This document shows, piece after piece, positions 151 through 32,549 of a stretch of 64,000 bases of DNA. Every line of letters begins with the position of its first letter. Within the stretch, counting starts at the first letter, position 1. This DNA is from Chromobacterium subtsugae (lineage in GTDB: Bacteria > Pseudomonadota > Gammaproteobacteria > Burkholderiales > Chromobacteriaceae), in contig NZ_JYKA01000004.1 of assembly GCF_001676875.1 (NCBI RefSeq), positions 310,001 through 374,000 on the forward strand, read 5' to 3'. The notes below the pieces were generated by a model. That model was not told the origin of the DNA and searched no databases. It saw only the letters and a program-made list of their open reading frames with translations. The position numbers and the translations under genes are program-made.

Positions 151-3100
151 GTGATGGAGTTGAACCAAGCCAGGCTGTCGCGCTTGCAGCTGTTCGGCAC
201 CCTGGCCATCGTGTTTGCGCTGGCCCTCACCCTGACCAGCTATTTCCTGATGATGAGCTGGCACGATTTCCAATCCGGACGGCAAAACATAGAGCAAGAG
301 GCCTCCGCGCGCGCGCGCGACAACCTGCGGGCCTATACCGACCACGCCGCGCTGCTGCTGTCGGCGCTGCGCGAACGCACCAACGACACCGTCCGCCACC
401 AGCTGCAGGAGCAGGTGGACCAGGCCTGGAGCCTGGCCGACGCCATCTGGCGCCGAGAACACGGCCGCCGCGGCGAACAGGACGCGCAGCGGCTGATCGT
501 CGAGGCGCTGCGCCCGCTGCGCTACTTCAACGGCCGCGGCTACTTCTTCATCGACACCCTGGACGGCCGCTGCGTGCTGCTGCCCACCGCGCCGGCGCGC
601 GAAGGCACCTCGCTGCTGGCCAACCGCGACGACCGCGGCCGCTACATCATGCGCGGCCTGATCGACTCGGTGGCCAACCCAGACGGCCGCGGCTTCTCCG
701 CCTACCGCTGGTATCTGCCCGGCGGCAACCGCATGGACGACAAGATCACCTATGCCCGCCGCTTCCCGCCTTACAACTGGCTGATAGGCAGCGGCGAATA
801 CATCAGCAATGTGGAAGCCGCGCTGCAGCAGCAGGGCCTGGACACGCTGGCGCGGATGCGCTTCGGCCAGGACGGCGGCGAATTGATGATCATCGACCGC
901 CAGGGCGTGATCCGCCTCTATCCGACCCGGCCGTCGCTGGTCGGCAAATCCTACCAGACGCTGCCGGCGGCCGAGCGCGACCGCGCGCTGCAACTGATCC
1001 AGCGCGGCAAGCACGGCGGCTTCCTCGAATACAGCCGCCAGGACGAGGCCGGCGCCGCCGCCGAATCCTATCTCGCCTACACCCGCCAGCTGCCGGGCTG
1101 GGACTGGACCCTGGTCACCAGCCTGCGGGTGCAGACGATACAGGACGACGGCCTGCGCGCCGCGCAGCGGCTGAAAAGCAGGCTGGCCGAGCGCATCATC
1201 GCCACGCTGGGCATGACGCTGGTGGCGATGCTGTGCGCCGGCCTGCTGTGCTGGTATTTCGTGCGCTGGGTCAGCGCGCTGGTGCGGCGCTACCAGCACG
1301 ATCTGGCGCAAAGCCACCTGTCGCTGAAGGAGCAGGCGCGCGAACTGAAGCTCAGCCACTTCATGATCGACAACGCCACCGACCTGGTGGCGCTGCAAAG
1401 CAGCCAGGGCGAGGTGGTGTACTGCAACCTGGCGCTGCGCCGCCTGCCGCAGCTGGTGGACGACCTGTTCCGCCATCCGCCCGGCGCCTTCCCGCTGACT
1501 TTCGAAACCCGCCACGACGGCGACGACGGCGAGCTGTTCCTGGAAATCACCGTCAACCAGCTGCGCTATCAGGGCGACAGCTATCTGTGCGCCACCGCGC
1601 GCGACATCAGCGGCCGCCGCCAGACCGAGCGCCAGCTGAGGCTGGCCGCCCAGGTGTTCGAATCCAGCAACGAAGCCATCCTGATCTCCGACCCGGACAA
1701 CCGCATCCTCACCGTCAACCGCGCCTTCTGCCACATCACCGGCTACAGCGAGGACGAAGTGCTGGGCCGCAAACCATCGCTGCTGTTCTCCGGCCGCCAC
1801 GAGCCCGCCTTCTTCCAGCAGCTGTGGCAGACCCTGCGCCAGCGCGGCCAATGGGCCGGGGAAATCTGGAACCAGCGCAAGAACGGCGAACACTTCCCCT
1901 GCTGGGTCAACATCAGCGTGCTGCAGGACGCGCAGGGCGCGATCAGCCACTTCGTCGCGCTGTTCACCGACATTTCCGAACGCAAGGAGCAGGAGGCCCG
2001 GGTGCAGCACATGGCGGAATACGACGCGCTGACCGACCTGCCCAACCGCGTGCTGGTCAACGACCGCCTGCACCAGGCGATACGCCAGGCCGAGCTGCAG
2101 CACAACCAGCTGGCGGTGCTGTTCGTCGACCTCGACCACTTCAAGAACATCAACGACACGCTGGGCCACAGCGCCGGCGACGAACTGCTGAAGGAAGTGG
2201 CGCGGCGGCTGGCCGGCGCGGTGCGCGGCCTCGACACCGTCGGCCGCACCGGCGGCGACGAATTCGTGCTGATCCTGCCGGCGATCAATCAGCCGAGCGA
2301 GGCGGCGCAGATCGCCGAACGCATCCTGCGCACGCTACAGCAGCCGTTCCAGATCGGCGAGCACTCGCTGGTGGTCAGTTGCAGCATAGGCATCAGCCTG
2401 ATGCCGGACGACGGCAGCGACATCCAGAACCTGCTGATGAACGCCGACCTGGCGATGTACCACGCCAAGGCGCACGGCCGGAACACCTTCCGCTTCTACA
2501 CCCGCGAGATGAACACCCAGGTGGCGGAGCGGCTGTTGATGGAAAACCGGCTGCGGCGGGCGATGGAGCAGCAGCAGCTGTACCTGGTGTACCAGCCGCA
2601 ATACGACATGGCCGGCAACCGCCTGCTGGGCTGCGAAGCGCTGCTGCGCTGGCGCGATCCGGACGAGGGCCTGATCATGCCCGGCCGCTTCATCCCGGTG
2701 GCGGAAGACACCGGCCTGATCGTGCCGCTGGGGCGCTGGGTGCTGAACGAAGCCTGCCGCCAGGCCAGCCAGTGGCTGCGCGACGGCCTGGGGCCGATCC
2801 GGGTGGCGGTCAACGTGTCCGCCCACCAGCTGATGCGCCACGACTTCATCGACGACGTGCGCGACGCGCTGCAGAAGAACAGCCTGCCCGGCCACTGCCT
2901 GGAGCTGGAGGTGACGGAAAGCACGCTGATGGCCGACGCCGACCTGGCCTCGCGCCAGCTGGCGGTGATCAAGGCGATGGGGGTGCGGCTGTCGGTGGAC
3001 GACTTCGGCACCGGCTATTCCAGCCTGGCCTACCTGAAGCGCTTCGCGCCGGACACGGTGAAGATAGACCGCTCCTTCATCACCGACCTGCCCGGCGACG

Positions 3101-19878: not shown

Positions 19879-20418
19879 ATGAGCGCAAGCAGACTATTGG
19901 CGCGGCTGTTCCGCTACCAGGCGTGGGCGAACGATGACATGCTGCGGGCGCTGGCGGCACTGGACCCCGGCCGGCACGCCGAGGAACGCCAGCTCGGCCT
20001 GCGGCTGATGAACCACTGCCTGGTGGTGAACCAGATCTTCGCCGCCCATCTCGCCGGCCGCAGCCACGGCTTCGCCGCCGACAACACGCCCGATACCCCG
20101 GCCCCAGAAGCGCTGCGGCGCGAGCTGGCAGCCGTCGACCGCTGGTATCTGGACTACGCCGAAGCCGCCACCCCGGATCTGCTGGCCCAGCCGCTGCCGT
20201 TCACCTTCACCGACGGCGATCCGGGCTTCATGAGCCACGAGGACATCCTCGCCCACGTGGTCACCCACAACGGTTATCACCGCGGCGAGGCCGGACGGCT
20301 GCTGCGCCAGGCGAACGACCGCGCCCCGCTGCGCGGCGAGCTGCCGTGGGACACCTACGCCGTTCACCTGCACCGCGCCGAGCCGGAACGCCGGCGGCAA
20401 GGCCGCGCCGCGCCGTAA
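19879..20418 (+). CDS. DinB-family metal-dependent protein
   Basis: A 179-residue four-helix-bundle protein of the DinB/YfiT superfamily. The start at ATG 19879 is supported by GGAAAGG eight bases upstream. The expected three metal-binding histidines are present: one in MNHCLV and two in HVVTHNGYHRGEAG near residue 130. Such proteins are often thiol- or nickel-dependent transferases or hydrolases, but most have no known reaction. It is divergently transcribed from the tetR gene and is likely its regulatory target. Confidence 0.88.
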   Translation: MSASRLLARLFRYQAWANDDMLRALAALDPGRHAEERQLGLRLMNHCLVVNQIFAAHLAGRSHGFAADNTPDTPAPEALRRELAAVDRWYLDYAEAATPDLLAQPLPFTFTDGDPGFMSHEDILAHVVTHNGYHRGEAGRLLRQANDRAPLRGELPWDTYAVHLHRAEPERRRQGRAAP

Positions 20419-20632
20419 CTTTCCGCTCAATCATGCCGTGGCCATTGCCGTTTGGAATAGCCGCGGCCAATGGTTTACCGATAGCGGGACATTTCCGCGC
20501 GCCGGCCCGCGGCCGCGGCAAAACCATCTATCGTGAATCAGGCAGGCCCCGGCCCGCCGCGCCTTGCGGCCGGGCCGGCATCGCCTCGCCCGCAAAGCTT
20601 GTGAATGTCCGTAGCCACCCGGCGAGGCCGCC

Positions 20633-21826
20633 ATGTTCGACAAAAGCGACAAAAGCATCATTCTGAAAACCATCATGGTGGCCGCCCCCATCCTGATCTG
20701 CATGGGCCTGCTGCCGGTGCTGTCGTTTTACATCGAAAAACTGGAGGAAAACGGCCGCGCCGAAATCGTCGACTACATCGCCATCGCCCAGGCGGCGATG
20801 GAGGTGAAATTCGACGCCGCCGACCTCAACGGCTGGCAAACCGGCTACGCCTTCGACATCATCCGCCATGTCGACGGCGCCAGCCGCAACGATGCCGTGT
20901 CCCGCGCCGAATTCCTGCGCTCGGCCGGCAATTTCCGCCGCGACATCCAGGCGCTGCGCGCGATGCCGCTGGCCGCCGACCAGCGCAACCTGCTGGACGA
21001 GGTGCAGCAGGATTTCGACAGCTTCATGGCGCTGGATGCCCGCATCATCGCCATGTACCGCGGCGGCGCGCCCGCCACCCGCGACAAGGCGTCCAACCTG
21101 GTGATGGGCGAGGAAATCCAGATCTTCAACCACATCTCGCAGAACACCAACGCGCTGGCGGTATCCATCACGCTGGACCTGATGAAGAAAGTGGCGCAAT
21201 CCAACTCCTACGGCATCGTCGCCCGCTGGATGATGCTGGTGATGTGGATCATCGCCAGCGCGATGGGCATTCTGCTGGTGCGGCTGCTGCACAAGTGGCT
21301 GGGCCAAATGCGCAGCCTGATGCAAAAGCTGGAATCGCTGGCCGGCACCGACGAACTGACCCAGCTGCCCAACCGCCGCACCTGGGACATCCAGATCGAA
21401 ATGATGCTGGCCGCCGCCAAGCGCTACCGCCAGCCCATCGCGGTGGCGCTGTTCGATCTGGACCACTTCAAGCAGTTCAACGACAGCCACGGCCACCCGG
21501 AAGGCGACCGCCTGCTGCGGGAAGTGTCCATCCTGATCAAGTCGCGGATGCGGCAATCGGACCTGTTCGCCCGCTTCGGCGGCGAGGAGTTCGTGCTGGC
21601 GCTGATGGACTGCGACCTGCCGCAGGCGGTGACCCGCATCGACTCGCTGCGCCGCAACCTGCCGGACAACCAGACCTTCTCGGTGGGCGTCACGCTGTGG
21701 GCGGAGGGCGAGCGCATCCACAATACCCTGGCGCGGGCGGACAAGGCGCTGTACCAGGCCAAGGACGGCGGCCGCGACCGGGTGGTGGGGGTGGAGCCGC
21801 CCGGGGGCAGAATCGAAGGGCGCTAG
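20633..21826 (+). CDS. Membrane-anchored diguanylate cyclase
   Basis: A 397-residue protein with a membrane segment at about 12-34, a periplasmic helical sensor region (about 35-195), a second membrane segment (about 200-222) and a GGDEF domain (about 240-390). The active site is GGEEF with the inhibitory RQSD motif five residues before it, so product inhibition is expected. DLDHFKQFND and HPEGDRLL are the usual substrate-binding stretches. There is no EAL domain. It is a monocistronic gene, convergent with the HAD phosphatase gene. The sensory ligand is unknown. Confidence 0.92.
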   Translation: MFDKSDKSIILKTIMVAAPILICMGLLPVLSFYIEKLEENGRAEIVDYIAIAQAAMEVKFDAADLNGWQTGYAFDIIRHVDGASRNDAVSRAEFLRSAGNFRRDIQALRAMPLAADQRNLLDEVQQDFDSFMALDARIIAMYRGGAPATRDKASNLVMGEEIQIFNHISQNTNALAVSITLDLMKKVAQSNSYGIVARWMMLVMWIIASAMGILLVRLLHKWLGQMRSLMQKLESLAGTDELTQLPNRRTWDIQIEMMLAAAKRYRQPIAVALFDLDHFKQFNDSHGHPEGDRLLREVSILIKSRMRQSDLFARFGGEEFVLALMDCDLPQAVTRIDSLRRNLPDNQTFSVGVTLWAEGERIHNTLARADKALYQAKDGGRDRVVGVEPPGGRIEGR

Positions 21827-21834
21827 GCGGCCAG

Positions 21835-22530
21835 CTAAACCAGCCCTTCGGCCAATTGCCCCAGCGCAAAGATGCCGCGCGCCGGCCGCGGCCTCTCCGC
21901 CGGCCAAGCGTGAAAGCCGCTCAGCCACACCGGCGCCATCCCCGCCCCTGCGGCGCCGATCACGTCATTGAGCGGATGGTCGCCGACATACCAGCACTCC
22001 GCCGGCGCCACCCCCAGCGCCTCGGCCGCCAGCCGGAAAATCGCCGCGTCCGGCTTGCCTACCCCTGCCGATTCGGAGCTGACCGTCAGCTCGATGGCCG
22101 ATGCGAACGGCAGCCGCGCCACTTTCTCCAGCCGGGTGCGATGGCTGCCATTGGAAATCACCCCGATGCGGACGCCCCGCGCCAGAAGAGCGGCAACCGC
22201 CTCCGCCGCGCCCGGCATCGCCGCGGTGCAAACCGCGTTGTAGCGCTCCCAATGATCCAGCAGCGCCTCCTGCTCCACCGCTTGCCGCCAGACGATCTGC
22301 GTTTTCAAGCCATGGGAAACCGCCTGCTTGATCGAACCATGCGGCGAGCCGGCGGGCAAATAGCCGCCGTTGTCGCAACGCTTGATCACCTCTGCCACCC
22401 GCTCTGCCCCGCCGGAACCGATGGCGTGGCCGAAATCGCGCCAGAACTGAAGGGCGTAAAGATCGATGCTGTCGTTCCGGTGCACCAGGGTGTTGTCCAG
22501 ATCGAAGAAAACGGCTTGGGGCAGCGTCAT
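21835..22530 (-). CDS. HAD-superfamily hydrolase (YjjG-like phosphatase)
   Basis: A phosphatase of about 231 residues starting at ATG 22530, which is preceded by GGAGGA and overlaps the stop of a 40-codon ORF (ATGA). Motif I is FFDLDNTLV with both catalytic aspartates, motif II is VISNGS, and motif IV is GDHPLNDVIGA. The cap is of the HAD-IA type. Its family dephosphorylates small metabolites such as nucleoside monophosphates or sugar phosphates; the substrate cannot be read here. Probably co-translated with the tiny upstream ORF. Confidence 0.88.
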   Translation of the reverse strand: MTLPQAVFFDLDNTLVHRNDSIDLYALQFWRDFGHAIGSGGAERVAEVIKRCDNGGYLPAGSPHGSIKQAVSHGLKTQIVWRQAVEQEALLDHWERYNAVCTAAMPGAAEAVAALLARGVRIGVISNGSHRTRLEKVARLPFASAIELTVSSESAGVGKPDAAIFRLAAEALGVAPAECWYVGDHPLNDVIGAAGAGMAPVWLSGFHAWPAERPRPARGIFALGQLAEGLV

Positions 22531-22649
22531 GCCACATCCTCCGCGCTCGCCAGGCCGCCGTACTCCGCCGAATACACATAGCGGCCATCCCGCGCGCCGG
22601 ACACAAAATCGGCGAAGTACGCCTCGAATTGCCCCCACAACTCATCCAT
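22527..22649 (-). CDS. 40-residue ORF coupled to the HAD phosphatase
   Basis: A short acidic ORF (MDELWGQFEAYFADFVSGAR at its start) with a strong AAAGGAAAGG ribosome-binding site before ATG 22649. Its last codons form ATGA with the start of the phosphatase gene. The composition (aromatic residues, evenly spaced acids) looks like a real small protein, not a random frame. No family is recognised; it may be a small partner of the phosphatase or a translation-coupling leader. Confidence 0.55.
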   Translation of the reverse strand: MDELWGQFEAYFADFVSGARDGRYVYSAEYGGLASAEDVA

Positions 22650-22744
22650 GTTCAACCTTTCCTTTCGCTATGCGGAAATTGTTCCGCGCCAAAGAAGACG
22701 GGGCAGCCATCAGCCTGCCCCGCGTCATCCAACCCGCTTTGCGC

Positions 22745-23413
22745 TCAGCCGGCAATCCGCCCCATCCGCTCCGCCAGCCGCAAATGGCAGGCGGAAGCCA
22801 GTTTGACCAAGTCGGTATTGTTCACCGGCATCCTGCCCGGTTCGGCGATCAACTCCGCCAAGCCTTCCAGCGTGGCGACGGAGCTGGTCAAGCCGATCAG
22901 CTTGCCATGCGGCCAGCGCTGCTTGTTGTGGCGCTCGTAATCCAGGGCCACCACCCAGCGCGAATGCTGCCACGGCCTGGGGCCGCGCAGCACCGCCTCC
23001 ATCACCGCCCGCCCCACTTGCTGCGCCGCCTCGGCGGCCAAGGCCAGCGCCAGATGCAGACTCTCCGCCGTGGTGGCCGGCCCGCCCTCATGCAGCAAGG
23101 CCGGCCGGGTTTCCTCCTGCCACCAGCGTCGCAACCGCCGCGCGCCCGGTTTCTTGATCCTCCTGACCACCTCGTCCAGCTCGCCTTCGGACAAGCACAG
23201 CACCGGCTCGTCCTCGCCTGCCAGCAACAGCAAGCGGCCGGCGGGTTGTTCCAGCGTGTGTAGCAGGTCTTCCACCTCCTGTTTCATCGAGGCGGCGATT
23301 TCGGCGGCGACGAACCAGAAACCCTCCTCGCGGCGGAGGACGCGCAGCGGGAAATTTTTGGCGTAGTCGAGGCGGAGGGGGAGGTTTACGGAGAGGTCGA
23401 GGTGGTGGTTCAT
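22745..23413 (-). CDS. Bro-N-like domain protein (antirepressor-type)
   Basis: A 222-residue protein. The N-terminal part reads FPLRVLRREEGFWFVAAEIA, followed later by LSEGELDEVVRRIKKPGAR and LRRWWQEETRPAL. This order and wording match the Bro-N domain of phage antirepressors (the V-R-V...G-x-x-W-F-V-A-x-D strand pair, then S-E-x-G-L-Y...F-R-x-W-V-x-x-E-V-L-P). The remaining 120 residues are helical and unknown. GC content and codon use match the core genome, so it is either an old prophage relic or a domesticated regulator. It follows a 35-codon ORF with an ATGA overlap. The Bro-N call is from memory of the motif. Confidence 0.6.
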   Translation of the reverse strand: MNHHLDLSVNLPLRLDYAKNFPLRVLRREEGFWFVAAEIAASMKQEVEDLLHTLEQPAGRLLLLAGEDEPVLCLSEGELDEVVRRIKKPGARRLRRWWQEETRPALLHEGGPATTAESLHLALALAAEAAQQVGRAVMEAVLRGPRPWQHSRWVVALDYERHNKQRWPHGKLIGLTSSVATLEGLAELIAEPGRMPVNNTDLVKLASACHLRLAERMGRIAG

Positions 23414-23517
23414 GGCTGGGCCTCCACAAGCTGATTGGCTACTCGGGAGCTAGCGGGAAGAGACAAGGAGTAACTGAGGACAAGCAGCGCCTCAGCAATA
23501 CGATTGATCATGGCCAT
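23410..23517 (-). CDS. 35-residue ORF coupled to the Bro-N-like gene
   Basis: Starts at ATG 23517 behind a near-perfect TAAGGAGG ribosome-binding site with optimal spacing. It encodes MAMINRIAEALLVLSYSLSL followed by a short polar tail. Its stop overlaps the ATG of the Bro-N-like gene as ATGA, so the larger gene is probably translated by coupling. The first half is hydrophobic enough for a membrane or signal-like helix. No homologue is known to me. Confidence 0.55.
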   Translation of the reverse strand: MAMINRIAEALLVLSYSLSLPASSRVANQLVEAQP

Positions 23518-24064
23518 GATGGCCTCCTTATGCTTTGAGATGAGAAGTCCACCGTATCGGGGTGGGGGCGCTCTCAACGGCATAAGTCGTCCGGGTCCTT
23601 GCGGATACCCGACACCCCCCTTGATCTCTTGCGACGTGCGAACGCACGCCTAGAAAGAAGGCGTAATGATACCGCCAGAACTGGGCGGGTGCAGCTTATG
23701 CTTTGAGAGAACCTCCAAGCTAATCCGCCTTCAGCTTTATGTCAATGCGCTAAGTATTGCTGCGTAATCAATAGCTTTTTGCTGTGTTGTACTGCTCTTT
23801 GTGCGTGATTTGGTATGTAATTTTATTAGGTTGGTACTCTGTCAACGGGGTAGATAAAGGGCCATGCGAAACTTTATCGTTGTAAGAGTTCATGCTTTTT
23901 ATGCATAGGCTAATGACGGTTGTTTGCTATAGTTGCAAGTACTATTTTGAACGGATTATATTGTAAATATTTTTAAATGGTTAGATATGGGAAATGTTCA
24001 TAAATGCTTTTATTTCGATCATTTTTTGCTCTTTGAGCCCATCAGAGATGGGCTCACCTTCAAC
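23518..24064. other. Intergenic region, GC-rich to AT-rich transition
   Basis: This 547-bp stretch holds the leader of the Bro-N-like pair and the border of the AT-rich island; base composition drops sharply near 23740. It contains a 13-bp direct repeat TTATGCTTTGAGA at 23528-23540 and 23696-23708, the first copy touching the ribosome-binding site of the 35-codon ORF. It also contains a small hairpin at about 23673-23690. A 39-codon frame with a GTG start at 23647 ends at that ribosome-binding site but lacks one of its own. I see no other gene. Confidence 0.4.
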
Positions 24065-25857
24065 TTATTGCCGAGCAAATCTTTTGTATATATTCGGAAG
24101 CTCATTTTGGGCTAACTTCCGAACACTAGCACCTTCTCTAATATACAGTTCATCATTATATAGAGAAGGGTCTTCTTGAGCAGTTACTTCAAAGATAATG
24201 AGGGACTTTTCTTTGTAATTTATACATTTTATATTTCTGCAAATATGATCTTTTAATGTCTTATCAAGAGGTGACTGTCTGATTTTTTCAACTATATTTT
24301 GGTAATATTGATCAATTGTTTTATTGGTCTTTGTAGCTTCATGATCAATACCACTTATATAAAATCCATTTTGCTCATATGATTCAATTCCATGAATTGA
24401 TCTTATTCTTTTAGTTGTTTCTTCAGAATCAGATATTCCTACTATTACATATCCTTTTGCATTGATATCAAGGTTAGCAATCCCAGCACAAGTTTTTAAT
24501 ATTTTTTCTAAAGATTTGACATCAAATTTGTAAGGAGATTCTAGTTCTAGGAATCCTTGTTTGAAATCGTAAGATGCTTGTTCTGTTTTGCTTTGTGTAA
24601 GTAAGTTATTTAGCTTACTTTCCCAGTGTGATTCTATAGGATCGCTTTCTTCATTGTGAATAAATTCTTTTATGATTAACTTTTTTAATCTTTCTACTTG
24701 ATCTTTTCTGTGTTCTGCCCCCCATCTCCCACCTTCTTGTGGCTGTATTTTAGGGCCATGTTTTTTTAATTTCTCTATGAGCCCATCTATTGATTTAACT
24801 CGCATGTTGTTATTTATTATTATTTCGTATAGTGCAAGAAATACGATTTGAAAAACTCTGGGTGCTTTAGGTTGTGCATCTTGTCCGAAAAGTATAGTTG
24901 TCAATGCAAGTCCAGATTTTTTTGATGCCTCAATTATTGTGTCAATTATTTTTAAAAAATTATCATTTAAATTTTCGATCCCTATCTTTCTGGTTAAAAG
25001 GTTAACTTCATTGAATCTTTTTATAGATGCTTCTGTGTCACGTAAACCAAAGTAGTCGTCAAGATACTCACTTCTTGATCCCGGTTTTTCGTGGCTAATG
25101 ACGTATGCTAATATATCAGCAATAATTTGCTCATCAAGGCTTTGTCGAACTTCCTCTTTGGAAAGAACTCCTTGTGATACCCAAAAAACAGAATCCACAT
25201 CAATGCCATACCCTAAGTCTCTACTTGCGACACTAATTAACTTCATCTTATTTAAAGGTAAGATGTCGGAGTGAGAAGAATCTCCTCTAATACTTGCAGA
25301 TATCTTTCTGGTTGCTGTTGAGAAATCATCAAGTGAGCCGGCGGCTCTTAATTCTTGTCTTGAGAGCTTCCTACCACCAGAGTTAATTCTCCTAAATACT
25401 TCATCTACATCAGTATCTGAACTGTATTCAAAAATTGACATCGGAACTTCATAAGCAGTTATTTTGACGCATTCTGCCCTGTCTAATTTAGGAAGGTTTT
25501 GTTTCAAAACCCCAGCGTCTAACAATTGCTTTGTTGATGCTATTGATTCAAGGTCGAAATATCTATTATCAAGTGTAATTTCACCTTCAATAAATGAAAA
25601 AATAGCATTTAGTCGCTGCATTCCATCGATTATTTCTATCGATTGGGATTTTATATTCTCGGCTAGAAGTATGATTGGAACTGGAAATTTTTTAGAAATT
25701 GAATCAATGAAAGCTTTTTTTCTTCTATTCCCCATACTAATTTTCTTTGATATCTACGATTGACTGTGTATTTGTCTTCTACATAATTAATATATAGTCT
25801 TTCAATTGTTTCACCTTTGACCGTAAGGTCTTGCTTTACTTTGTTTATAGATTTCAT
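24065..25857 (-). CDS. DUF262 plus AlbA_2 protein encoded in two frames joined by a -1 shift
   Basis: The start at 25857 opens a frame with the DUF262 hallmark RRYQRKLVWGIEEKK, which then runs into unrelated residues and stops. The -1 frame continues perfectly with AFIDSISKKFPVPIILLAE, the IIDGMQRLNAI motif (DGQQR-like) and VFRRINSGGRKLSRQELR, to a stop at 24065. The joined protein has 597 residues. The C-terminal 190 or so resemble an AlbA_2/Schlafen-type domain (YDFKQGFLEL, CAGIANLD, GYVIVGISDS). No HNH (DUF1524) nuclease half is seen. DUF262 proteins include type IV restriction and anti-phage enzymes (GmrSD, SspE), so a defence role is plausible. The shift point is A AAA AAG. The gene is AT-rich, unlike its neighbours, and probably acquired. 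A plain one-base deletion is the alternative to recoding. Confidence 0.75.
25714..25720 (-). promoter_or_regulatory. A AAA AAG heptamer, possible -1 frameshift or slippage site
   Basis: The reading frame from 25857 passes through GAA GAA AAA AAG, which puts A AAA AAG in exactly the phase used by the E. coli dnaX site. Slipping back one base continues into the long downstream frame at GCT TTC. The run is seven A followed by G; an eighth A would restore one frame. I see only a weak 5-bp palindrome downstream and no convincing upstream Shine-Dalgarno stimulator. Confidence 0.45.
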
Positions 25858-26213
25858 GATATAGGCTCACATCCGCTTGACAAAGAGTCAATATAACACA
25901 CCAGTTGACACTGGCATGCCTGAGTGATTGAAAATCAGTCGCATGGTATGTGAATTGTCAAATGAAAAATATTTAAACAATAATTAATATCACTACATTT
26001 TATATTATTATGTATAATTTAAATACAGATTATTAGTGTAAAATTGGTTAATACACATATAGGATGATGTAAAGCCAATTAGATTTATTTGGTATGGCCT
26101 ATGATGTACCGTTGGAGTACGAACTACTGGGCCCAATGTCCCCATCAGCGCAAGCCGGCTTCGAAGCCATTCCCAAGGTGGCTGTTCGACGCGGGGCGAC
26201 GTTAACCCGGTAA
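25858..26213. other. AT-rich island edge with a small inverted repeat
   Basis: Upstream region of the DUF262 gene. A perfect 5-bp-arm inverted repeat TTGAC-5-GTCAA lies at 25877-25891, about 20 bp before the start codon, and could be an operator. The rest up to about 26100 is very AT-rich with no gene. From 26140 it changes to GC-rich repeat sequence (a partial copy of the long palindrome described below). Confidence 0.35.
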
Positions 26214-26270
26214 GTTGGGCTCCATCGTAGGTTGGCGCTGAGCGCAGCGAAGCCCAACGTTCACCGAGGC

Positions 26271-26792
26271 CTACTCCTGCAACTGCACCACAACACCTTC
26301 CCCTGCCCAATCCGCAGGCAACCACCCCAACCTGACATAGCGATGGAAGCTGGAATACGGCCAATCCGCCACCCGCTCCGCATCGCCATGCTTGACCGGG
26401 TTGTAATGGATGTAATCCACATGCGCCTGCAAATCCGCCTCATCCCGGATCTGATGCTCCCAATACCGCCGCTGCCAGATGCCGCGCTCCCGCTTGCGCT
26501 CTCGACTCTCCCGGATGCGTTCGACTTTGGGCAGACTGCGCGAAAACGCCGCCTTGATCAGCGCCATTCTTGTCGCGTAATCCGCGTCGCCCTGCGGCAA
26601 GGCCCATACCGCATGGAAATGATCCGGCAACACCACCATGGCGACGATCTCAAATGGATGGCGGTCTCGCACTTGGCGAACAACCTGCCGCAAAACGTCG
26701 ATATGGCGCGTCAGATAATCTTGTCGCCGATCCGCCAAATTGACGGTGAAAAACCATGTGCCGCCACCTGCTATTGAACGCCGGTATTGCAT
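26271..26792 (-). CDS. REP-associated tyrosine transposase (RAYT), copy 1
   Basis: A 173-residue Y1/HUH-type transposase of the REP-associated group. The HUH motif is HFHAVW in VLPDHFHAVWALPQGD. The catalytic tyrosine region is near YIHYNPVKHG, and the WQRRYWEHQI and YSSFHRYV stretches are RAYT hallmarks. Such enzymes nick and move or amplify REP palindromes, and flanking inverted REP-like sequences are present. It is nearly identical to the copy at 27684-28223, with a different N-terminus (MQYRRSIAGGGTWFF versus a longer start). No frameshift is seen, so it may be active. Confidence 0.92.
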   Translation of the reverse strand: MQYRRSIAGGGTWFFTVNLADRRQDYLTRHIDVLRQVVRQVRDRHPFEIVAMVVLPDHFHAVWALPQGDADYATRMALIKAAFSRSLPKVERIRESRERKRERGIWQRRYWEHQIRDEADLQAHVDYIHYNPVKHGDAERVADWPYSSFHRYVRLGWLPADWAGEGVVVQLQE

Positions 26793-26815
26793 GGACTGCC
26801 TCCAGACTGTGCGCG

Positions 26816-26858
26816 GTAAACGTTGGGCTTCGCTACGCTCAGCACCAACCTACACGCC
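26816..26858 (+). repeat. REP-like hairpin repeat
   Basis: GTAAACGTTGGGCTTCGCTA followed by CGCTCAGCACCAACCTACAC. GTTGG pairs with CCAAC around a GCTTCGC..GCTCAGC core. The same sequence occurs at 27168-27212 and 27513-27555, with one variant at 28229-28268, and in inverse orientation at about 26228-26260 and 27641-27673, giving six copies in 2 kb. Confidence 0.75.
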
Positions 26859-26908
26859 AACGAATCCCAGGCCATCTTGAACACAAAACCAAAGCGATGC
26901 GCCCCATC

Positions 26909-27031
26909 CCCCATCAGCGCAAGCCGTCTCCGAAGCCATTCCCAAGGTTTTAAGCCGCCGGTTGTTCGACGCGGGGCGACGTTAGCGCCCCGCTAGTTCC
27001 GGCGGCTCCTTGGGAATGGTTTTGGAGACGG
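26909..27031. repeat. Long imperfect palindrome, copy 1
   Basis: Four nested complementary blocks make a 108-bp palindrome from 26924 to 27031: CCGTCTCC with GGAGACGG, CATTCCCAAGG with CCTTGGGAATG, GCCGCCGG with CCGGCGGC, and GCGGGGCG with CGCCCCGC. It is preceded by CCCATCAGCGCAAG. It has no coding capacity. It resembles a non-autonomous element or structured RNA or DNA unit that travels with the REP-like repeats. Confidence 0.65.
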
Positions 27032-27261
27032 GGTTTCGCCGCGCTGTTGGGGTCGCCTAGGGGTGTCGGGGAGCTGGCGAGACAGCTCCCTGACCTGTCC
27101 GGCGGGCAGCCCCGCCATGAAAATCATCGTCCGCGAAGCGGACACCAAACCACACACCGTGCGCGGTAAACGTTGGGCTTCGCTGCGCTCAGCACCAACC
27201 TACACTCCAACGAATCCTAGGCCATCTGAAACATAGAACCGCACCAGCTCGCCGACATCCC
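27032..27261. repeat. Repeat spacer with GTCCGCGAAGCGGAC hairpin and REP-like copy
   Basis: A spacer with no gene. It contains a CGTCCGCGAAGCGGACACCAA hairpin block near 27127-27147 (repeated near 27479-27499 and, truncated, near 28403-28417) followed by a REP-like copy at 27168-27212. Confidence 0.5.
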
Positions 27262-27382
27262 CCATCAGCGCAAGCCGGCTTCGAAACCATTCCCAAGGTT
27301 TTAAGCCGCCGGCTGTTCGACGCGGGGCGACGTTAGCGCCCCGCTAGTTCCGGCGGCTCCTTGGGAATGGGTTTGGAGACGG
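27262..27382. repeat. Long imperfect palindrome, copy 2
   Basis: Same nested structure as the copy at 26909-27031. The inner blocks are identical and the outermost arm is diverged on the left (CCGGCTTCGAAACC). Partial copies lacking the right half are found at about 26141-26204 and 28321-28399, so four traces of this element lie within 2.3 kb. Confidence 0.65.
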
Positions 27383-27616
27383 GGTTTCGCCGCGCTGTTG
27401 GGGCGGCCTGGGATTGCCAAGGGGCTGGCCGCACAGCCCCTGGCCCGTTCGCCGGGCGGAACCGGCACTAAAATCATCCGTCCGCGAAGCGGACACCAAA
27501 CCACACTGTGCGCGGTAAACGTTGGGCTTCGCTGCGCTCAGCACCAACCTACACGCCAGCGAAATCCCAGGCCATCTTGAGCACAAAACCGAACCGACTC
27601 GCCACCATTCCCCATC
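27383..27616. repeat. Repeat spacer between RAYT units
   Basis: Contains a second GTCCGCGAAGCGGAC hairpin block and a REP-like copy (27513-27555), then a short unique stretch before the second RAYT unit. I see no gene here. Confidence 0.5.
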
Positions 27617-28293
27617 AACCCGGTAAGTTGGGCTCCATCGTAGGTTGGCGCTGAGCGCAGCGAAGCCCAACGTTCACCGCGCCCTACTCCTGCAACTGCA
27701 CCACAACACCTTCCCCTGCCCAATCCGCAGGCAACCACCCCAACCTGACATAGCGATGGAAGCTGGAATACGGCCAATCCGCCACCCGCTCCGCATGGCC
27801 ATGCTTGACCGGGTTGTAATGGATGTAATCCACATGCGCCTGCAAATCCGCCTCATCCCGAATCTGATGCTCCCAATACCGCCGCTGCCAGATGCCGCGC
27901 TCCCGCTTGCGCTCTCGACTCTCCCGGATGCGTTCGACTTTGGGCAGACTGCGCGAAAACGCCGCCTTGATCAGCGCCATTCTTGTCGCGTAATCCGCGT
28001 CGCCCTGCGGCAAGGCCCATACCGCATGGAAATGATCCGGCAACACCACCATGGCGACGATCTCAAATGGATGGCGGTTCCGCACTTGGCGAACAACCTG
28101 CCGCAAAACGTCGATATGGCGAGTCAGATAATCTTGTCGCCGATCCGCCAAGTTGACGGTGAAGAACCATGTGCCGCCTTCTGCCATTGAACGACGATAA
28201 CGCATGGATTGCCTCCAGCACACCCGCGGTAAACGTTGGGCTTCGCTGCGCTCAGCGCCAACCTACACGCCAACGAATCCCAGGTCATCTGAA
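27617..28293 (-). mobile_element. RAYT unit, copy 2
   Basis: Tandem near-identical duplicate of 26204-26880, in the same orientation and offset by 1413 bp. It again has an inverted REP-like sequence at each end (about 27641-27673 and 28229-28268). Differences are a handful of substitutions and small changes at the transposase N-terminus. The homology extends past the gene on both sides, so duplication of the whole unit is likely. Confidence 0.8.
27684..28223 (-). CDS. REP-associated tyrosine transposase (RAYT), copy 2
   Basis: A 179-residue near-copy of the transposase at 26271-26792, with the same HFHAVW motif, WQRRYWEHQI stretch and YIHYNPVKHG region; visible changes include D to N in the QVR-NRHPFE stretch and D to H in VKHGHAERV. 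The start is six codons longer (MCWRQSMRYRRSMAEGG); the internal Met before RYRRS (28205) matches the start of copy 1 better and is the likelier start. It appears intact. Confidence 0.9.
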   Translation of the reverse strand: MCWRQSMRYRRSMAEGGTWFFTVNLADRRQDYLTRHIDVLRQVVRQVRNRHPFEIVAMVVLPDHFHAVWALPQGDADYATRMALIKAAFSRSLPKVERIRESRERKRERGIWQRRYWEHQIRDEADLQAHVDYIHYNPVKHGHAERVADWPYSSFHRYVRLGWLPADWAGEGVVVQLQE

Positions 28294-28560
28294 ACATAGA
28301 ACCGCACCAACTCGCCGACATCCCCATCAGCGCAAGCCGGCTCCGAAGCCATTCCCATGGTTTTAAGCCGCCGGCTGTTCGACGCGGGGCGACGGTAGCG
28401 CCCTCGCGAAGCGGACACAAAACCTTCGACTGCACGCAAGCCATCTAGCGTCGCCCCTTCTCCCGCGAGGTAAAAGGGGCTTCGCAACCCGGAAGCGCTC
28501 TGCACTCAGCTACACGGCCAACCAGATACGACAGTATCCATCCGCTGCCGCATCGCCTCG
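28294..28560. repeat. Decayed repeat fragments
   Basis: Holds a left-half copy of the long palindrome (28321-28399) and a truncated GCGAAGCGGACAC block (near 28403), then about 140 bp with no recognisable feature. It marks the downstream edge of the RAYT/REP array. Confidence 0.45.
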
Positions 28561-28758
28561 TTATCCCCTCTTGCGCAAACGGCGGCGAATCACCAGCAAG
28601 CTAGAGGCCGCGACAACGGCTGTCGAGAAAATCACCATATGAAGCGGCTTGACCTGGAAAAGATAAGGCTGCAGGTAAGCCAGCCCGACGATGACTAGAT
28701 ACAAAATGGCAAGCGCGATGGCAATCGCCAGCCCCGCTGCCACTACATGATTACGCAT
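28561..28758 (-). CDS. Small two-helix membrane protein
   Basis: A 65-residue protein starting at ATG 28758 behind AAAGGAG. Two hydrophobic segments (about 5-30 and 38-57) are followed by a strongly basic tail (RRRLRKRG), predicting both ends in the cytoplasm. No family is recognised. It lies downstream of lpd beyond that operon's terminator and is likely expressed on its own. Confidence 0.6.
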   Translation of the reverse strand: MRNHVVAAGLAIAIALAILYLVIVGLAYLQPYLFQVKPLHMVIFSTAVVAASSLLVIRRRLRKRG

Positions 28759-28880
28759 GCCCACTCCTTTGAGATTCCACCCAGCGCTCGCCAGCGAAGC
28801 GGGGCTTGGCAAAGGCGGAATGCCCGCAATGCGGTCTTCCACCCTGAAAAATTCAATCATCATATCACTCAACCACAAAA

Positions 28881-28911
28881 CAAAAAGGGCAAGCCCCAAG
28901 GCTTGCCCTTT
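28881..28911 (-). terminator. Intrinsic terminator of the aceE-aceF-lpd operon
   Basis: A perfect 12-bp stem (AAAGGGCAAGCC, 28884-28895, with 28900-28911) and a 4-nt loop, followed on the minus strand by TTTTTGTTTTG. It begins 36 bp after the lpd stop. Confidence 0.85.
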
Positions 28912-28946
28912 CTCCATCTGATGGCGGTCAAACCGCCGATCCAACC

Positions 28947-30746
28947 TTACTTCTTGCGTTGCGGCGGCAGGTCCGTGCAGGTGCCGTGCGCCACTTCCGC
29001 GGCCATGCCGATGGACTCGCCCATGGTCGGGTGCGGGTGGATGGTCTTGCCGATGTCGGTCGCGTCGCAACCCATCTCGATCGCCAGGCACACCTCGCCG
29101 ATCATGTCGCCGGCATGCGGGCCGACGATGCCGCCGCCGATGATCTGGTGGCTTTCGGCGTCGAAGATCAGCTTGGTGAAGCCTTCGTCGCGGCCGTTGG
29201 CGATGGCGCGGCCGGAGGCGGCCCACGGGAACACGCCCTTCTCGATCTTCAGGCCTTGCTTCTTGGCCTCGTCTTCGGTCACGCCCACCCAGGCCACTTC
29301 CGGATCGGTGTAGGCCACGCCCGGAATCACGCGGGCGTCGAAGTAGGCCTTCTGGCCGGCGCAGTTTTCCGCCGCCACGTGGCCTTCATGCACGCCCTTG
29401 TGCGCCAGCATCGGCTGGCCGACGATGTCGCCGATGGCGAAGATGTGCGGCACGTTGGTGCGCTGCTGCTTGTCCACCTGGATGAAGCCGCGGTCGGTCA
29501 CCGCGATGCCGGCGTTTTCCGCGCCGATCAGCTTGCCGTTCGGCGCGCGGCCGGTGGCGTACAGCACCAGGTCGTAGCGTTGCGCTTCCTTCGGGGCTTG
29601 CTCGCCCTCGAAAGTCACCCATACGCCGTCTTCCTTCGGCTCCACGGCCACGGTCTTGGTATTCAGCATGATGTTGTCGAAGCGGTGCGCGTTCCACTTC
29701 TGCCATACCTTGACCAGGTCGCGGTCTGCGCCCTGCATCAGGCCGTCCAGCATTTCCACCACGTCCAGGCGCGCGCCCAGCGTGGAGTAGACAGTGCCCA
29801 TTTCCAGGCCGATGATGCCGCCGCCGATGATCAGCATGCGTTTGGCGACGCCCTTCAGCTCCAGCGCGCCGGTGGAGTCCACCACGCGCGGGTCGTTCGG
29901 GATGAACGGCAGCTTCACCACGCGGGAGCCGGCGGCGATGATGGCGTTCTTGAACTTGACGATCTTCTTCTCGCCCGACTCTTCGCGGCCTTGGCCGGTG
30001 GTCAGCGAGACTTCGATGTGGTGCGGGTCGATGAAGTGGCCGTTGCCGCGCACGATTTCCACCTTGCGCGCCTTGGCCATGCCGCCCAGGCCGCCGGTCA
30101 GCTTGGCGATGACCTTTTCCTTGTAGCCGCGCAGCATGTCGATGTCCACTTCCGGCTTGCCGAACTTGATGCCGTTGGCGGCCAGGTGGCTCACTTCGTC
30201 GATCACCGCGGCGTTGTGCAGCAGCGCCTTGGACGGGATGCAGCCCACGTTCAGGCACACGCCGCCCAGGGTGGCGTAACGCTCGACGATGACCACTTTC
30301 AGGCCCAGGTCGGCCGCGCGGAAGGCGGCGGAGTAACCGCCGGGGCCGCCGCCCAACACCATCACGTCGCATTCCACGTCGGCGCCGCCGCTATGGGAGG
30401 CGGCGACCGGCGCGGCTTGCGGCGCGAAGCCGGCCTGGGTGGTGGCGGAGGCGACGCCGGTGGTTTCCACCGGTTTCACTTCGGCCGGAGCCGCGGCGGC
30501 TGCGCCGGCGGCTTCCAGGATGACGACCACGTCGCCCTCGGACACTTTGCCGCCCACGGCGACGCGCACTTCCTTGACGGTGCCGGCGGCTTCGGCCGGC
30601 ACTTCCATGGTGGCTTTGTCGGTTTCCAGCGTGATCAGGCTGGCTTCTTTTTCAATCACGTCGCCCGGTTTGACGAACACTTCGATCACGTCCACGTTGT
30701 TGTGGCCGCCGATGTCCGGGACTTTCAATTCGATCAGATTGCTCAT
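28947..30746 (-). CDS. lpd: Dihydrolipoamide dehydrogenase with N-terminal lipoyl domain (E3)
   Basis: The 599-residue E3 subunit of pyruvate dehydrogenase, which reoxidises dihydrolipoyl groups with FAD and NAD. An N-terminal lipoyl domain (lipoylated Lys in ETDKATM, about residue 43) is joined by an Ala/Pro linker to the flavoprotein. The flavoprotein has the FAD site GGGPGGYSAAFRAADLG, the redox disulfide GGVCLNVGCIPSK, a second Rossmann motif (IGGGIIGLEMG) and the C-terminal HPHPTMGES base. The start at ATG 30746 begins exactly with the lipoyl domain. The lipoyl-E3 fusion is known from Neisseria and relatives. Third gene of the operon. Confidence 0.97.
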   Translation of the reverse strand: MSNLIELKVPDIGGHNNVDVIEVFVKPGDVIEKEASLITLETDKATMEVPAEAAGTVKEVRVAVGGKVSEGDVVVILEAAGAAAAAPAEVKPVETTGVASATTQAGFAPQAAPVAASHSGGADVECDVMVLGGGPGGYSAAFRAADLGLKVVIVERYATLGGVCLNVGCIPSKALLHNAAVIDEVSHLAANGIKFGKPEVDIDMLRGYKEKVIAKLTGGLGGMAKARKVEIVRGNGHFIDPHHIEVSLTTGQGREESGEKKIVKFKNAIIAAGSRVVKLPFIPNDPRVVDSTGALELKGVAKRMLIIGGGIIGLEMGTVYSTLGARLDVVEMLDGLMQGADRDLVKVWQKWNAHRFDNIMLNTKTVAVEPKEDGVWVTFEGEQAPKEAQRYDLVLYATGRAPNGKLIGAENAGIAVTDRGFIQVDKQQRTNVPHIFAIGDIVGQPMLAHKGVHEGHVAAENCAGQKAYFDARVIPGVAYTDPEVAWVGVTEDEAKKQGLKIEKGVFPWAASGRAIANGRDEGFTKLIFDAESHQIIGGGIVGPHAGDMIGEVCLAIEMGCDATDIGKTIHPHPTMGESIGMAAEVAHGTCTDLPPQRKK

Positions 30747-30847
30747 GGTTTTCCATCCGCAATGTTGGGAGGCCGGCGCAAAGCCGGCCGCCTCGAGTCT
30801 GGCTGATTCTGCAGGGTGGAACCTCCCCCCGCATCCTGCGACAAGAA

Positions 30848-30881
30848 GGCGGAACGCCCCGGCCAAGCCGAGGCTTCCGCC
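30848..30881 (-). promoter_or_regulatory. Hairpin between aceF and lpd
   Basis: GGCGGAA (30848-30854) pairs with TTCCGCC (30875-30881), and the inner bases CCCCGGC...GCCGAGG extend the stem. It has no T-tract, so it is more likely an mRNA-stability or processing structure than a terminator. It resembles the hairpins after aceE. Confidence 0.45.
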
Positions 30882-30887
30882 CCGCCG

Positions 30888-32549
30888 TTACAGGATCAGA
30901 CGGCGCACGTCGGTCAGCAGCTTGCCCAGGTGCACGGTGAAGCGCGCGGCGGCCGCGCCGTCGATCACGCGGTGATCGAAGGACAGGCTCAGCGGGCACA
31001 TCAGGCGCGGCGCGAATTCCTTGCCGTTCCACACCGGCTTGATCTGCGATTTGCAGACGCCGAGGATGGCCACTTCCGGCGCGTTCACGATAGGCGTGAA
31101 GCTGGTGCCGCCGATGCCGCCCAGCGACGAGATGGTGAAGGTCGCGCCTTGCATGTCGGTCGGCTTCAGCTTGCCTTCGCGGGCCAGCTTGGACAGGTCG
31201 GTCAGTTCCTGGGCGATCTGGCGCAGGCCCTTCTTGTCCGCGTCCTTGATCACCGGCACCACCAGGCCGTTAGGCGTGTCGGCGGCGAAGCCGATGTGGT
31301 AGTACTGCTTCAGCACCAGGTTGTCGCCGTCCAGCGAGGCGTTGAAGTTCGGGAAAGCCTTCAGCGCTTCGGCGGCGGCCTTGATGATGAAGGCCAGCGG
31401 GCTGATCTTCAGGCCGGACTTTTCCCATTCCTTGCCCACGGTCTTGCGGAAGTCTTCCAGCTCGGTGATGTCGCACTCGTCGTTGAACGTGACGTGCGGG
31501 ATCATCACCCAGTTGCGCGACAGATTGGCGCCGGAAATCTTCTGGATGCGGGACAGCGGCTTGGTTTCGATCGGGCCGAACTTGGCGAAGTCCACCTTCG
31601 GCCACGGCAGCAGGTCCAGACCCACGCCGGAGCCCGCCGGCGCGGCGGCCGGGGCCAGAATAGCCGGGTTCTGCATCACGCCCTTGACGAAGGCCTTGAC
31701 GTCGTCTTCGGTGACGCGGCCCTTGCGGCCGTTGCCCTTCACTTTGCCCAGGTCCACGCCCAGTTCGCGCGCCAGACGGCGCACGGACGGACCGGCGTGA
31801 GCCTTGGAGAAGGCGATTTCGTCGATGGCGGCGGCCACGGCGGCGGCTACCGGCGCCACGGCCGGCGCGGCGGCAGGCGCAGCTGCAAGCGGGGTCGGAG
31901 CGGCCGGGGCTGCTGCCGGAGCCGGCGCAGCGGCTGCCGGGGCGGACGCGGCGACAGCGCCTTCCACCACGACGATCAGGTCGCCTTCGCTGACCTTGTC
32001 GCCCACCTTGATTTTCACTTCCACCACACGGCCGGCGGCGGTGGCCGGCACTTCCATGGTGGCCTTGTCGGTTTCTAGCGTGATCAGGCTGTCGTCGACG
32101 GCGATTTCGTCGCCCACTTTGACCGTCACTTCGATCACGTCGACGCCGTTATGGCCGCCGATGTCCGGCACGCGGATTTCGCTGCGGCCGGATGCGGTGG
32201 GCGCTGCCGGCGCGTCGGCCGGAGCGGCGGCAACCGGAGCCGGGGCAGCGACCGGAGCGGCTGCAGGCGCCGGCGCGGCGGCTGCAGGCGCCGGAGCGGA
32301 CGCGGTAGCGCCCACTTCGATGATGGCGATCACGTCGCCTTCGGAAATCTTGCCGCCCACGACGGCTTTCACTTCCTTGACCACGCCGGCGGCTTCCGCC
32401 GGCACTTCCATGGTGGCCTTGTCGGTTTCCAGGGTGATCAGGGAATCGTCCACGGACACGGTCTGGCCCGGGGCGATGAATACTTCGATGATGTCTACGT
32501 TGCTGTGACCGCCGATGTCGGGCACTTTCAGTTCGATCAGATTGCTCAT
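30888..32549 (-). CDS. aceF: Dihydrolipoamide acetyltransferase (E2)
   Basis: The 553-residue core subunit of pyruvate dehydrogenase, transferring acetyl groups from lipoate to CoA. Two lipoyl domains (about 1-78 and 118-195, each with [10 protein letters not shown]) are separated by Ala/Pro-rich linkers. A peripheral subunit-binding domain (about 265-305: [20 protein letters not shown]) and the catalytic domain (about 325-553) with DHRVIDG active-site histidine follow. The first lipoyl domain is very similar to that of Lpd, at both DNA and protein level, which points to domain duplication within the operon. It starts at 32549, 120 bp after aceE. Confidence 0.97.

Follow-up and report, generated by a model that had tools for sequence, protein, structure and literature searches.

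Probable recent frame loss at a short A run in a horizontally acquired DUF262–AlbA_2 gene of Chromobacterium subtsugae

Introduction

The described systems close to the gene reported here include GmrSD, BrxU, and SspE, in which an N-terminal DUF262 (GmrSD_N) domain is followed by a C-terminal DUF1524 nuclease domain, according to the available text of PMC10952713. The motif DGQQR is known as the nucleotide-binding motif of DUF262 proteins (PMC4619093, PMC10952713). In the DUF262–DUF1524 gene PFLU4242 of P. fluorescens, loss-of-function mutations were reported to relieve plasmid cost (PMC8544851), suggesting that a DUF262 gene can be dispensable, or its loss beneficial.

Another group of proteins, annotated as 'DUF262 domain-containing protein', carries DUF262 and AlbA_2 in the same order as the gene studied here; it includes the copy on Azotobacter chroococcum pAcX50f (WP_040107390.1) and copies on IncF plasmids. 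In the literature searched, we found neither a paper on DUF262 together with AlbA_2 nor any published example of recoding in a DUF262 gene. The -1 frameshift cassettes of the dnaX type and the IS type resemble the present locus in that an in-phase A AAA AAG sits where two frames overlap, and the dnaX recoding site is A AAA AAG in the same phase. Here we describe a split DUF262–AlbA_2 gene from a 64,000-nucleotide stretch of C. subtsugae DNA (the window) and consider how the split arose.

Gene Organization and Domain Architecture

A first-pass annotation of the window had placed the split of this gene exactly at an in-phase A AAA AAG site; its coordinates were right, and the strand, which it had left out, is given in Table 1. 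ORF A continues for 48 residues to EEKK and then for 16 residues outside the family frame. In the frame of ORF A the junction reads GAA GAA AAA AAG CTT, and ORF A and ORF B overlap there. The length of 597 residues proposed for the joined protein fits, with 48 residues from ORF A and 549 from ORF B. The assignment of both halves to one DUF262 protein was likewise confirmed when the two halves were searched separately against relatives, as residues 1–47 of ORF A and the whole of ORF B hit the same 12 relatives at adjoining places and together match one DUF262 (GmrSD_N)–AlbA_2 protein.

Table 1. Features of the split DUF262–AlbA_2 gene and of the segment that carries it (positions in the window).
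Feature	Position	Strand	Description
ORF A	25857–25663	minus	64 codons; N-terminal end of the DUF262 (GmrSD_N) domain, with NRRYQRKLVW
ORF B	25735–24065	minus	556 codons; remaining GmrSD_N with DGMQR, long middle region, C-terminal SLFN_AlbA_2
Junction run	25721–25714	minus	seven A (25721–25715) and G (25714)
Heptamer A AAA AAG	25720–25714	minus	in phase with the ORF A frame
Second in-phase A AAA AAG	24686–24680	minus	unbroken part of ORF B; internal control
AT-rich acquired segment	~23777–26202		31–38% GC inside (500-base windows), ~58–72% outside

ORF B matches the Pfam models GmrSD_N (57.1 bits, cut-off 33.2, E 3.4e-15), starting at position 26 of the 199 positions of the model, and SLFN_AlbA_2 (29.7 bits, cut-off 25.3, E 1.1e-6), whereas ORF A alone matched no Pfam, PADLOC, or NCBIfam model with an E value of 1 or less. 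The residues NRRYQRKL and the W are present in all nine unbroken relatives of our alignment, and this conserved stretch precedes the ORF B match; in the tenth row, that of ORF B, the NRR at this place comes only from a fortuitous alignment of the out-of-family start of ORF B. The DGQQR motif has its counterpart in DGMQR, which ORF B retains. With NRRYQRKLVW in ORF A and DGMQR in ORF B, neither ORF is therefore a whole DUF262 domain.

The family architecture, as scanned in ORF B and three relatives, is an N-terminal GmrSD_N and a C-terminal SLFN_AlbA_2 in a protein of ~590–600 aa, with AlbA_2 below the Pfam cut-off in two of the three relatives (P0003 and P0005). ORF B aligns with the Azotobacter copy over 99% of its length, at 47% identity. 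The gene shares the N-terminal GmrSD_N with GmrSD, BrxU, and SspE, its DGMQR being a version of DGQQR, but AlbA_2 stands where these proteins end in DUF1524; DUF1524 was not detected in ORF B (E up to 1) or in the three relatives (E up to 0.01). Two PADLOC models match ORF B locally, over the DUF262 part only, namely NsnA (E 1.1e-20), which we take to be a Menshen protein, and PD-T4-2_A (E 5.2e-15); no second long gene was found in the AT-rich segment. A search by sequence for a solved structure of an intact relative returned none at E up to 0.1.

ORF B contains no internal stop in its own frame, compared with 52 and 66 in the other two forward frames and with a mean of 45 (lowest 28) in 500 mononucleotide shuffles. 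Its open frame is not due to chance, and if the break is real it must be recent. The second in-phase heptamer lies within this unbroken frame, where slipping would only do harm, and shows that the motif also arises incidentally.

Relatives Read at the Junction

The junction was read in 26 relatives that are 29 to 49% identical to ORF B. Three near-identical pairs (L012/L013, L070/L071, and L011/L076) are included with both members counted, leaving ~23 distinct sequences. The frame is unbroken at the junction in 25 of them, the Azotobacter copy among these, whereas the window gene is broken. In the first set (L009–L020, n = 12) both halves abut in every relative and 11 are in one frame, the exception being L012; in the second set (L070–L079, L081, L083, L085, and L086, n = 14) all are in one frame. 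The exception, E. coli plasmid CP042633.1, breaks near position 3008, in the codon where the window gene also loses its frame. It differs from its sister L013 by seven one-base gaps and three mismatches over 6,084 bases, and with such a density of indels its break is probably an error of the record. L016, from genome G106, has a frame break of its own near query residue 450 (near 2838).

None of the 26 relatives has an in-phase A AAA AAG at the junction. The conservation check put forward in the first-pass annotation, in which a kept A AAA AAG with both frames would favor recoding, thus turned out negative. A simple indel or sequencing error had been expected to show as homologues mostly with eight A in one frame; the single frame is indeed nearly universal, but eight A are not general, as AAA AAA G (lysine codons, with G at codon position 1) occurs at the junction in L015 and L078 alone. 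Recoding by conservation is rejected on these 26 relatives; their identity to ORF B does not exceed 49%, and conservation among them would not reveal a trait confined to this lineage.

The remaining loci were dropped for the following reasons: L001, L002, L021, L025, and L029 belong to the own genome; L003–L008 are partial matches to other DUF262 proteins, covering residues 3–139 at most; L022–L024, L026–L028, L030–L032, and L033–L068 are flanks or genome stretches; L069, the R100 copy, was taken for annotation only; the N-terminal half of L080 has no match; and L082 and L084 are the same genes as L017 and L018.

Among plasmids, 616 records match at E up to 1e-30, with at least 80% of the query covered in 144 of them, and six were read at the junction (L010–L013, L019, and L020); the record of L011 sits in the plasmid set yet is 4.9 Mb long. 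At the DNA level, three plasmid records matched, each covering at most 10%. Phage records gave one partial match. The exact junction DNA had no match in viral contigs. A single-protein scan found no relative in viral contigs and one in genome contigs, and an alignment-based scan of viral contigs found 12 loci. The R100 copy (L069:2878–4914) is another shortened one, its match reaching query residue 394 with an IS1 directly after it; many of the IncF plasmid copies listed also end their match at residue 394.

Origin of the Frame Break

We consider that this is an ordinary defense-like gene that was recently inactivated, its frame having been lost within a short stretch of A roughly 48 codons from the start, and we give this reading a probability of roughly 0.6. 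The continuity of the relatives at the junction supports this part of the first-pass annotation, which had offered frame loss at a homopolymer as its other reading, and the long frame, otherwise intact, means that the break is either recent or an error. Replication slippage in the A run would have caused the frame loss in this lineage. The strain would then make a 64-residue dead-end peptide, and the gene would most likely be off. ORF B could be started internally at 25735, but the product would lack the most conserved DUF262 stretch. In the intact protein, by analogy with GmrSD, BrxU, and SspE, the nucleotide-binding DUF262 part probably senses foreign or modified DNA and the C-terminal part probably acts.

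The phase of the heptamer is no independent evidence of recoding, since a frame loss of this kind itself yields that phase. When one base is lost from a lysine A run that precedes a G at codon position 1, the G moves to codon position 3, which is the shift-prone phase. Eight AAAAAAG heptamers were counted in the 11 relatives scanned, with the G at position 1 in six (three of them in L015), at position 2 in two, and at position 3 in none. Position 1 is thus the commonest arrangement among them, and it is the one that a one-base loss turns into the pattern seen here. No in-phase heptamer occurs anywhere in the ORF of the same 11 relatives, and the lack of this phase also fits selection against slippage. 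The main value of the case is therefore one of caution, in that a break at an in-phase A AAA AAG mimics recoding and conservation needs to be checked.

Alternatively, the A run may hold a sequencing or assembly error and the gene may be intact in the organism, which we regard as rather unlikely, though the foremost of the rival accounts. The assembly is a draft of 76 contigs, and the rest of both frames is flawless. According to the available text of PMC3711429, sequencing errors, not indels, are the expected cause of isolated frameshifts confirmed by BLASTp, and real indels are thought likelier near 3' ends, while the break here is near the 5' end; on this expectation, an error was given more weight and recent inactivation less. 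Against an error, the reading frame persists through the other homopolymers of the gene, two more A7 runs and a G6 among them, and no frame switch was found in 127 matched ORFs of the same contig. For this comparison, 374 kb of the contig were set against 320 kb of the complete congener G008, from which 192 ORFs passed a composition filter and 127 had a match of at least 70% identity. These matches cover 138,870 bases of the own contig with 26 homopolymers of at least six (24 of six and two of seven). Stops occur in ten of the matches, apparently close to ends or next to alignment gaps, and nine best matches are free of stops but span less than 85% of the query ORF. The comparison run the other way showed one frame switch in G008 among 129. 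The result mildly favors a real mutation and argues against an indel-rich assembly, although a single error would be compatible with it. A reversible switch, which the first-pass annotation had raised as phase variation, is a good deal less probable than an error. Under it, the A run would slip at replication and turn the protein on and off, as happens in other bacteria, where restriction genes phase-vary through homopolymers. The position of the run near the 5' end of a defense-like gene would suit such a switch, but a run of seven bases is short for it, and the run is not conserved, as the two occurrences of AAA AAA G among the relatives indicate.

The first-pass annotation had also proposed that the protein is made through programmed -1 frameshifting or transcript slippage, which, as a new form of control, would fix the dose of a toxic or costly defense protein. 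This does not hold up well and is the least probable of the readings, even though the in-phase A AAA AAG ranks, with stimulators present, among the three heptamers of highest efficiency in E. coli, according to the available text of PMC4066793, and both frames are otherwise intact, the same look being expected of a lineage-specific recoded gene. A GGGG ~8 nt upstream could pair weakly with the anti-SD. However, GGGG does not belong to the set of SD-like elements in the available text of PMC4066793, and no member of that set occurs in the 30 nt upstream. Downstream structure does not exceed chance either: in folding that took in no pseudoknots, the 73 nt downstream gave -0.5 kcal/mol (z +1.48, a stability equaled or exceeded by 194 of 200 shuffles), and the 133 nt downstream gave z +0.16 against shuffles. 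The locus thus differs from the dnaX-type and IS-type cassettes in its lack of a conserved site, a listed SD element, and such a structure, and the incidental heptamer in the body of ORF B further weakens the case. As for transcript slippage, many bacterial genomes were reported to show selection against it at runs of nine A or T (PMC1088944), and the seven A here fall short of that length. Tested in E. coli with no stimulators, 39 heptamers (61%) reached between 2.1 and 10 times the level without a motif, which averaged 0.055% (PMC4066793), figures that pool heptamers and do not refer to A AAA AAG alone; on this basis, a trace of full-length fusion below about 0.6%, made by ordinary ribosomal slippage, is plausible, and nothing shows selection for such a trace. 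An intermediate idea, the "problem indel with compensation" taken from PMC5009743, is that the heptamer at the break gives a very small constant dose without the cost of full expression, a state that selection would keep in the lineage. We consider this doubtful, slightly more so than a reversible switch; it overlaps both recent inactivation and the recoding proposal. If the leaky reading were true, a defense gene could persist at a trace dose through incidental slippage.

Genomic Setting

We take the gene to have been acquired recently by horizontal transfer. Its GC content is 33%, and it is the only PF03235 match in its genome at E up to 0.001. At the DNA level it was not found in any of the 18 congeners (19 genus genomes including its own); five of them have matches to the segment, none extending past query position 378 of 2751 and all lying left of the gene, and protein-level matches in congeners are weak and confined to the DUF262 part. 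In congener G016, homology of the left flank ends at 23777 and that of the right flank restarts at 26202, and a different AT-rich stretch (39% GC) lies between these flanks, indicating that the site is variable and that G016 does not show it in a cleanly empty state. An Rfam search of positions 20000–31000 and a tRNA scan of the window yielded nothing, and promoter and GGAGG scans yielded nothing usable.

Two neighboring genes were scanned against Pfam. Beside the gene, at 26204–28404, two near-identical transposase gene copies stand in tandem together with several repeat families, and the copy scanned is IS200-like (Y1_Tnp); a single region of congener G016 matches both copies. On the other side, the segment is adjoined by a gene at 22748–23413 with a sub-threshold Bro-N match, and many similar stretches occur across the genus. 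At the same site, the AT-rich stretch of G016 carries a different gene (L065:4322–5557) with HATPase_c and DUF4325 domains and a local match to the PADLOC model DrmA (E 1e-34). The site may thus be a hotspot for acquired single genes.
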